From the NCBI GenBank assembly GCA_017399405.1, contig JAFQCT010000012.1:1-64000 (forward strand): a DNA stretch of 64,000 bases, in the 5' to 3' direction. Source of the DNA: Clostridia bacterium. GTDB taxonomy: Bacteria; Bacillota; Clostridia; Oscillospirales; Acutalibacteraceae. Position 1 is the first letter of the stretch, and every line of letters begins with the position of its first letter. The notes under the pieces are model-generated. The model made no database searches, had not been told where the DNA came from, and saw only the letters and a program-made list of their open reading frames with translations. Position numbers and translations under genes: made by a program. Positions 55,847-56,830 of this stretch are shown one piece after another.

Positions 55847-55880
55847 AATCCCCAAGGAATGTACCTTGGGGATTTCTCTT
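55847..55880 (+). terminator. Terminator after the B6-type operon (bidirectional)
   Basis: Hairpin AATCCCCAAGG-AATGTA-CCTTGGGGATT with T runs on both sides (TTTCTCTTT on plus, TTTTTCTA on minus). It also ends the convergent SOS-box gene. Confidence 0.92.
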
Positions 55881-55935: not shown

Positions 55936-56178
55936 TTATGCTACTGTTGTGTTTGAGTATTCAACAGTTTTTGCAGATGTGTGTAATCTTAAATGCTCAC
56001 CACGAGCCACAGCCTTTTTGTGATTATGAATACGGATTGCACGACGGATATTACCAAGAACTATTCTCTTGATTGCCTGTTCAAAAGCGATAACCTTATC
56101 TTCGTGCATAAAGCCATAAACCAAAAGACCTGCTACCAATAATTCTATTAAAGTTGTAATTGCAAATGTTGTTGACAT
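55936..56178 (-). CDS. Small SOS-controlled membrane protein of unknown function
   Basis: 80 residues from the ATG after GGAGG. One membrane helix at the N-terminus (about 4-23; TFAITTLIELLVAGLLVYG) with a basic, mostly helical cytosolic tail (RRAIRIHNHKKAVARGEHLR). No recognised family. A perfect GAAC-N4-GTTC box lies just upstream. Size, single helix and SOS control resemble cell-division inhibitors such as YneA, SidA or DivS in layout only. It has no LysM domain, unlike YneA. Upstream codons to 56265 overlap the promoter and are not used. Confidence 0.78.
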   Translation of the reverse strand: MSTTFAITTLIELLVAGLLVYGFMHEDKVIAFEQAIKRIVLGNIRRAIRIHNHKKAVARGEHLRLHTSAKTVEYSNTTVA

Positions 56179-56220
56179 AAAATCTACCTCCAATATGTTC
56201 TGTTCGTACCGAACAAACTT

Positions 56221-56232
56221 GAACAAATGTTC
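56221..56232. promoter_or_regulatory. SOS (LexA-type) box
   Basis: GAACAAATGTTC, a perfect match to the Gram-positive GAAC-N4-GTTC box. It lies between the -10 of the small membrane protein gene and its start, so a bound repressor would block transcription. A degenerate second site, CGAACATTTGTA on the minus strand, lies at 56274-56285 next to the -35. A palindrome TGTTCG-TAC-CGAACA with opposite half-site order is at 56201-56215. Confidence 0.78.
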
Positions 56233-56244
56233 TTTACAAGTCAT

Positions 56245-56272
56245 ATTATAGACCAAAATTTTCAAAAGTCAA
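56245..56272 (-). promoter_or_regulatory. Promoter of the SOS-box small membrane protein gene
   Basis: Minus-strand TTGACT (56267-56272), 16 nt, TATAAT (56245-56250). The start point near 56238 lies just before the box. Confidence 0.78.
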
Positions 56273-56285
56273 TACAAATGTTCGC

Positions 56286-56830
56286 AAAATTTTATATATT
56301 TAGTCCGTTTTTGCGGACACTATTTTCAATATTTTTGCAAGAATTTCCTTTTGTATTTACATATTAACACAATATATTGTGGCTGTCAATATATATTTAT
56401 ACTAAATGTGCGATTTTTACAAGTTTTTCAGTATTTTTGCAAAAATTTAGAAAAAAATATTTATTTTGTTCGGGTGTTCGGATGAAAAATTTTCAAACAA
56501 TTAGACAAATTTGAGTTTATCGGGGTGTTTGAAAGACATCCTCTTTCCTCCCTCTGACGAGGCAGGTGGCAAAATCGAAGATTTTGACGGAGGGAGAGAT
56601 AAAGTACTTAACGGCTCGTATCTCTCCCTCAGTCTCGCTAACGCTCGACAGCTCCCTCGTCAGAGGGAGCAAAAAAAAACAAACACATAAAACAGTTCGA
56701 CAAACTCCAATTTGTATCACAAAAATTATTAAAAATATTAAAATACCTATTTATTATTTAATAAAAATGGTGTACAATATTATGGATAATGGGAAATTAT
56801 ATATAATTGTATTACTTAAGAGGTAAAATT
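56286..56830. other. Long non-coding interval upstream of obgE
   Basis: AT-rich. It holds a small hairpin GTCCG-TTTTTG-CGGAC (56303-56318) and the mini repeat element at 56504-56716. TACAAT at 56773-56778 may be the -10 of obgE. Short open frames through the repeat are not convincing as genes, as they consist of repeat sequence. Confidence 0.7.
56504..56716. repeat. Mini repeat element with palindromic ends and a long hairpin core
   Basis: The left end is GACAAATTTGAGTTTATC (56504-56521) and the right end GACAAACTCCAATTTGTA (56699-56716), related to the ends of 312-463. The core has CTCCCTCTGACGAGG (56548-56562) pairing with CCTCGTCAGAGGGAG (56655-56669), and further inner pairing around CGGAGGGAGAGAT and ATCTCTCCCTC. 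No transposase. The core differs from that of the first element. Confidence 0.75.

Follow-up and report, generated by a model that had tools for sequence, protein, structure and literature searches.

A conserved 80-residue membrane protein of gut Clostridia with LexA boxes at its promoter, a candidate SOS division inhibitor

What does a small membrane protein do when its promoter is overlapped by two boxes of the GAACN4GTTC type? The question is raised by one gene in the window analysed here, a stretch of 64,000 nucleotides from a Clostridia bacterium (contig JAFQCT010000012.1). An initial annotation, made from the letters alone, had described its product as an SOS-controlled 80-residue membrane protein of no recognised family. 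The features of the locus are collected in Table 1.

Table 1. Features at the locus of the 80-residue protein (window positions).
Feature	Position	Strand	Basis
CDS, 80-aa SOS-box-controlled membrane protein (start ATG 56178, stop codon 55936-55938)	55936..56178	(-)	translation; ORF conserved, purifying selection
Transmembrane helix, residues 5-24	56107..56166	(-)	hydrophobic window in 124/124 members; AF2 helix 3-24; conserved acidic E12
Residues 26-33, family signature EDKVIAFE, directly inside the membrane	56080..56103	(-)	alignment of 123 members
C-terminal Val-Ala, putative degron	55939..55944	(-)	C-terminal Ala in 103/124 members
Ribosome-binding site GGAGG	56187..56191	(-)	sequence
LexA box 2, GAACATTTGTTC (GAACAAATGTTC), at start point	56221..56232	(-)	perfect in 33/37 genus promoters
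-10 TATAAT	56245..56250	(-)	promoter scan
-35 TTGACT	56267..56272	(-)	promoter scan
LexA box 1, degenerate, GAACATTTGTAT, touching -35	56272..56283	(-)	core GAACATTTGT same as recA site
Inverted repeat TGTCC-N8-GGACT, putative second regulator site	56302..56319	(-)	upstream-region counts
Terminator-like hairpin AAATCCCCAAGG...CCTTGGGGATTT, 3' of gene	55847..55875	(-)	RNA fold

The promoter had been read as TTGACT-16-TATAAT, with the perfect palindrome GAACAAATGTTC at the start point and a degenerate second box, GAACATTTGTAT, beside the -35. All three elements were found; the -35 and -10 match the consensus at 11 of 12 positions. Motif counts say little about the boxes: 0.89 perfect palindromes are expected by chance in the window alone, which makes the observed one not significant. 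Genome-wide, GAACN4GTTC occurs 16 times vs 39 for the reversed control, and GAACAWWTGT 27 times vs 28, i.e. neither is enriched. The significance of the boxes comes from their position and their conservation. As to position, box 1 touches the -35 in 37 of the 39 loci from same-genus genomes, and in those 37 the second box is either perfect (33) or has one mismatch (4). It follows box 1 by 51, 55 or 56 bp, the spacer having drifted. L031 and L039, the two exceptions, are additional copies; their genomes each carry the boxed gene as well.

Homologues of the protein are present in all 37 same-genus genomes searched (own included) and in 0 of 23 genomes from other families. A core profile of 45 positions matches 144 of 398 genomes, in 52 of 135 genera, of the host's family (E<=0.01); the other 254 genomes, some of them incomplete, have no match, so the gene is not universal. 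All 14 genomes with matches at E<=1e-4 in an order-wide sample of 394 belong to the host's family. A weak match in G278 (E 6.7e-4), a genome from another family of the order, was missed by the core profile and dropped. Beyond the genus loci we collected 98 loci, 8 from one search and 30 + 60 from the core-profile search, the 60 being taken mostly from the better-scoring part of a longer match list. A gene could be parsed in 97 of the 98; with the genus loci this gives 136 genes and 124 distinct proteins, 38 in the genus set and 86 others (among the latter L180, a second copy in a same-genus genome). Named relatives stem from metagenomes, ruminant-gut ones among them, with the labels Clostridia, Oscillospiraceae or Ruminococcaceae.

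The initial annotation had suggested looking for an SOS box upstream of relatives, and there it is conserved. Members having been found by protein similarity, we scanned 220 bp upstream of each and compared them with 1,524 windows from other parts of the same loci (not restricted to intergenic DNA) and with 2,480 shuffled upstream regions. A perfect GAACN4GTTC lies within these 220 bp in 79 of 124 members, vs 2 of the windows and 5 of the shuffles; the half-box pattern is found in 109/124, vs 75/1,524 and 63/2,480. Outside the genus set the values are 47/86 for the perfect box and 73/86 for the half-box pattern. Two of the 15 box-less members (L214 and L221) carry degenerate boxes with 6/8 matches. 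Of the 38 genus-set loci 34 also contain obg, vs 4 of the 86 others, some loci ending at contig ends. The neighbourhood thus differs outside the genus, yet the promoter persists: its conservation is not a by-product of gene order. Ten extra-genus loci share a large neighbouring zinc-ribbon/kinase-like ORF (by eye; L174, L209, L214, L216, L221, L229, L239, L242, L257 and L267), and nine share a yebC-like ORF (by eye); loci with such shared neighbours may represent a second recurrent location of the gene.

The same genome encodes RecA and one LexA (LexA_DNA_bind + Peptidase_S24), and the same box core stands upstream of recA (CGAACATTTGTGCG), lexA (CGAACAAATGTTT), uvrB (CGAACAAATGTGCG) and dinB (GAACAAATGTTT). 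The 27 GAACAWWTGT matches represent 23 distinct sites, 13 of them inside ORFs >120 aa. The other ten are those of recA, lexA, uvrB and dinB, both boxes of the 80-aa gene, and four whose genes were named by eye: two small genes (C2:261 and C16:3836), a phage sigma-like gene (C2:22685) and, for a site of the less typical AATT form, groEL nearby. Among the nameable genes that directly face SOS boxes the 80-aa protein is the only small membrane protein (membrane calls by eye); the boxes of uvrB and dinB also have larger, divergent ORFs for membrane proteins on their other side, and behind the small C2 gene comes a secreted-looking ORF. Conservation of the boxes across genera, together with the core shared with recA, lexA, uvrB and dinB, strongly supports the SOS control initially proposed, and LexA regulation of the 80-aa gene appears nearly certain.

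Other elements surround the gene. A leader palindrome, TGTTCGGTACGAACA, lies at 56201-56215 between box 2 and the ribosome-binding site, and its TTGTTCGG part recurs in many genus members; LexA could make a further contact there, or the palindrome could function in the RNA. On the other strand a promoter-like TTGACA-16-TATGTT is seen at 56172-56199 (+); 10 promoter-like sites were found vs 5.5 expected. No Rfam family scored at threshold between 55800 and 56830; three weak matches had at best E 0.67. The hairpin 3' of the gene folds at -26.7 kcal/mol (z -6.7), and the consensus scan did not report it. Between the gene and obg a MITE-like element with nested inverted repeats occupies 56544-56673; a near-identical stretch (by eye) stands at a contig end (C2), just upstream of a second small SOS gene described below (L060).

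The initial annotation had missed an inverted repeat, AGTCC-N8-GGACT in its general form, which lies ~33 bp upstream of the -35. Perfect GTCC-N8-GGAC is present in 62 of 124 upstream regions (0/1,524 windows, 0/2,480 shuffles) and a relaxed form in 73 of 124 (0/1,524 windows, 1/2,480 shuffles); outside the genus set the perfect form is found in 30/86 and the relaxed one in 38/86. The repeat is apparently a second operator. Of the 70 family promoters that could be parsed, 58 have it 30-34 bp ahead of the -35. Distances between repeat and -35 cluster at 22-23, 30-34, 39-42 and about 49-53 bp, with outliers at 8-17, 45, 57-58 and 75-78 bp. Spacings of ~22, 32, 42 and 52 bp at other genes suggest an activator in class I position. 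The helical-phase argument for such an activator holds in part only, given the outliers, some intermediate values and a step from 33 to 39 that is not a full turn.

The own genome has AGTCC-N8-GGAC in five places. Four are intergenic, all of them <=90 bp from a GAACN4GTTC; the remaining one falls within the coding sequence of an RnfC-like protein (by eye). Genus-wide, a perfect LexA palindrome lies <=130 bp from 32 of the 63 distinct AGTCC-N8-GGACT sites listed, a set drawn from outside the loci already fetched. Downstream of these 63 sites the 80-aa family is found 11 times and the second small SOS gene 16 times. Of the 31 box-less sites among those listed, 15 are inside open frames >150 codons and are probably due to chance. 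Without a perfect box the repeat also precedes, at two of the listed sites each, genes for Cas9 (L104, L157), an EcoRI-type methyltransferase (L124, L142), an AAA ATPase whose best PADLOC match is PtuA (L121, L141) and a gyrase-B-type subunit (L109, L112); a Cas3-HD-like gene has one box-less site (L148), and a relative of it a boxed one (L162). In these series L104, L124, L121, L109 and L148 were scanned, and the second locus of each pair was named by eye. A NucC-like neighbour is seen in L124. By being shared with defence and topoisomerase genes, the repeat could mark a possible damage/defence regulon of one regulator. Outside the genus the repeat followed by TTGACA was found in 4 of 196 other genomes of the order-wide sample.

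The second conserved small SOS gene encodes a soluble-looking protein (beginning MTLYELGEQYL, mostly 79-84 aa). It is seen in the own genome (C2:184-272), as ORF L164:275-511 and in L113-L118, L126, L133, L147, L149, L150, L152, L156, L160 and L163. There the AGTCC-N8-GGACT repeat is followed ~60 bp further on by a perfect LexA box. Pfam, PHROGs and PADLOC gave no match for the own copy, and no relation to the phage-operon protein at C2:22685 was detectable. At C1:1004-1070 of the own genome (L058, L166) the repeat has an XRE-like (by eye)/DNA-methyltransferase pair on one side and, on the other, a divergent promoter whose -35 and -10 flank a LexA box; as no ORF >52 aa precedes L058:2-280 on the divergent side, this promoter could make an RNA. 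Two WYL genes are present, and neither 3.2-kb WYL locus contains the repeat. A WYL activator reading the repeat, by analogy to DriD or PafBC, was considered: the repeat-less WYL loci and a DriD site that differs decide neither way.

The reading frame is under purifying selection (over the first 65 codons of 7 pairs, dN 0.06-0.12 vs dS 0.54-1.37). In agreement with the membrane protein announced, a single hydrophobic segment lies inside the first 37 residues of all 124 distinct members. The basic tail is likewise borne out: K+R average 0.1 before the transmembrane helix vs 5.8 in the 25 residues after it, and the asymmetry is reversed in 0/124. By the positive-inside rule an N-out/C-in topology is predicted for 124 of 124 members, so that the effector part is predicted to be cytosolic. 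An AF2 model of modest confidence (12 sequences; mean pLDDT 72, pTM 0.35) proposes helices at 3-24 and 26-58 and a disordered stretch at 69-80. Residues 26-58 have a net charge of +5 and an 18-residue hydrophobic moment of 0.61, which describes a basic amphipathic helix.

Conservation is concentrated around the membrane. The column of E12, near the outer end of the transmembrane helix, is acidic (E or D) in 117 of 123 aligned members, and a G stands near the inner end in 104/123. The ExKxIxFE signature just inside shows its first E in 121, K(+2) in 92, I(+4) in 98, F(+6) in 119 and E(+7) in 123 of 123; since the anchor of the alignment demanded E/Q at position 0, F/M/I/L at 6 and E at 7, the free counts are those of K and I, plus the choice within the anchored residue sets. 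Boxed members are 48-137 aa long, with long basic tails in those up to 137 aa. The chain ends with Ala in 103 of 124 members (67/86 outside the genus set), made up of 97 of the 109 boxed ones and 6 of the 15 box-less ones, against a background of 9% at residues -25 to -4. Of the 124, V occupies the position before the last 59 times, A 20 times and C 17 times. This conserved ending resembles a protease tag and would fit a candidate degron. A Val-Ala ending is weaker than the Leu-Ala-Ala tag. As initially stated, the protein belongs to no recognised family in Pfam (0 matches at E<=1), PHROGs (0), PADLOC (0) or NCBIfam (a single spurious match, E=0.092). Neither LysM nor another known domain was found above cut-off in the libraries searched, and no solved structure of a relative was found.

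Phage-like surroundings are seen for six box-less members. L039 adjoins YqaJ exonuclease and RecT; L031 an exonuclease VIII-like and a Sak4-like protein; L181 an SNF2 helicase, with L219 ~3 kb away on the same contig; L180 a PAPS-reductase-like protein of a phage family; and L245 is near a CI/LexA-like S24 repressor. Two queries against 50,697 phage records returned no relative, nor did four queries from relatives, the window protein not among them, against viral contigs; the phage-like assignment rests on these neighbours. Host takeover would suit the copies that neighbour phage recombination genes, and growth-control genes would be in place in such regions.

A model can be proposed from these elements. 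In undamaged cells LexA would sit on the start point and on the border of the -35; upon damage, RecA-triggered cleavage of LexA would free the near-consensus promoter, possibly with the help of a regulator bound at AGTCC-N8-GGACT. The protein would insert N-out/C-in, with its transmembrane helix followed by the interfacial signature, the basic amphipathic cytosolic helix and a loose Val-Ala tail. It would most likely bind a divisome component at the inner membrane face, through the transmembrane helix and the signature/basic helix, and so delay septation while DNA is repaired. Once repression returns, it would be degraded by ClpXP or another AAA+ protease of the cytosol, as may be expected of a C-terminus that is predicted to be cytosolic and ends with a small or hydrophobic residue followed by Ala. 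Computation establishes the gene with its boxes, their conservation, the terminal alanine and the link between the repeat and SOS promoters, and it predicts the topology; what we infer is that LexA binds, that division is the target, that a second regulator exists and that the protein is proteolysed. The two-box SOS promoter, the small membrane protein, the cytosolic signature and the terminal Ala fit a transient brake. A division-inhibitor role, proposed by analogy, is plausible, with chances that are roughly balanced; for an SOS division inhibitor that acts specifically from the cytosolic face we likewise see an even chance. Against a division role speak the absence of a homologue of known function, the amphipathic helix, which also fits a membrane-active peptide, and the fact that YneA and SosA act via an extracytoplasmic part, as this protein would not. 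The weaker Val-Ala ending, the 254 family genomes without a match and the membrane or secreted-looking ORFs near other SOS boxes count on the same side.

Other readings of the same elements have to be weighed. The boxes could belong to chance or to another repressor and the gene stand outside the SOS regulon, as might be thought from the roughly one palindrome expected in the window and from the lack of genome-wide enrichment. Conservation speaks against it: the contrast of 79/124 with 2/1,524, the fixed position around -35 and +1 and the core identical to that of recA and lexA make this reading very improbable. Within the SOS regulon, the product could be a TisB-like membrane-active peptide which, once induced, lowers membrane potential or ATP and leads to dormancy or tolerance with no block of the divisome. 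TisB-type toxins are under antisense RNA control, and the promoter-like site on the (+) strand could give an antisense RNA over the leader. A hydrophobic helix followed by a basic amphipathic one, and a near-consensus promoter held by two boxes as for a harmful product, point the same way. TisB is however about 29 aa long, shorter than the 80-aa protein and than all boxed members; the signature points to a protein partner, beyond amphipathicity; and no Rfam family reached threshold around the gene. We regard a TisB-like peptide as quite unlikely.

Somewhat better placed, and still rather unlikely, is a product not directly involved in division: either a damage-response membrane adaptor that tethers the chromosome or the machinery of repair or prophage control, or a phage gene, now domesticated, that acts on phage or on the takeover of the host. 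The box-less relatives beside recombination and replication genes would suit it, as would the long basic tails and an inverted repeat common to defence genes. Against it, no domain was found, the phage records and viral contigs searched contain no relative, and the SOS box pattern is a property of 109 of 124 members. The division inhibitor thus remains our preferred reading. We are doubtful, and offer only tentatively, that it can be generalised to a group of SOS division inhibitors, so far seen in a single Clostridia family, acting from the cytosolic face, cleared by AAA+ proteases through an Ala degron and controlled by LexA plus an activator whose regulon includes CRISPR-Cas, restriction-modification and topoisomerase genes.

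In the open-licence PubMed Central literature we found no candidate gene for division arrest under DNA damage in the mostly uncultured gut Clostridia, and no description of the 80-aa protein or of the repeat, whose letters were not a query. A study of the gut SOS meta-regulon, in its account of the counts, tallies sites by COG (PMC3998124); short genes without a COG would be missed. Three traits look new: the predicted N-out/C-in topology, the reverse of that of YneA and SosA; the terminal alanine of boxed members; and the repeat upstream of the -35, found also before defence and gyrase-B-type genes. With the topology reversed, the face of the divisome that is contacted would be another one, and the repeat, if a real operator, would reveal a regulator that joins DNA damage and phage defence. 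The gene would offer a handle on how gut Clostridia stop dividing after DNA damage.

How does the protein compare with known SOS inhibitors? The initial annotation had given it the build of YneA, SidA and DivS. Small size, a single transmembrane helix and SOS control stand; the predicted topology is reversed relative to YneA, and the likeness to SOS membrane inhibitors is at most one of analogy. YneA of Bacillus subtilis and ChiZ of Mycobacterium tuberculosis are described as small, SOS-induced and with a single transmembrane helix, as here, and as carrying LysM, extracellular in YneA (PMC13396833). The 80-aa protein has no LysM (Pfam, E<=1) and is not a member of the YneA/ChiZ family; these are N-in/C-out, in contrast to the N-out/C-in predicted for all 124 members. 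The transmembrane helix of YneA is reported to bind TM7 of FtsW, blocking septal synthesis, and low-confidence models in the same account suggest FtsW binding for other SOS membrane inhibitors (PMC13396833).

SosA of Staphylococcus aureus (77 aa), likened here like SidA and DidA by description and not by sequence, also has one transmembrane helix and SOS induction (PMC6851548) and, as described, also lacks LysM (PMC13396833). Its C-terminus is extracellular, its C-terminal tail is needed for turnover and it is a proposed CtpA substrate (PMC6851548), whereas the 80-aa protein has a predicted cytosolic C-terminus and a terminal Ala. DriD, a WYL-domain damage activator, is described as reading a pseudo-palindrome, ATACGAC-N7-GTCGTAT, that overlaps the -35 (PMC12340889). 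Both systems have a damage-linked pseudo-palindrome at the gene of a small inhibitor, known in one case and candidate in the other; here it differs in letters and in its place well upstream of the -35, and no DriD motif was seen by eye in 56240-56290. SidA and DidA of Caulobacter are very small membrane inhibitors that act on FtsW/FtsI/FtsN, one controlled by LexA and the other by a separate damage-sensitive factor (PMC4211646). Organisms and promoters differ, and the promoter of the 80-aa family may combine both inputs.
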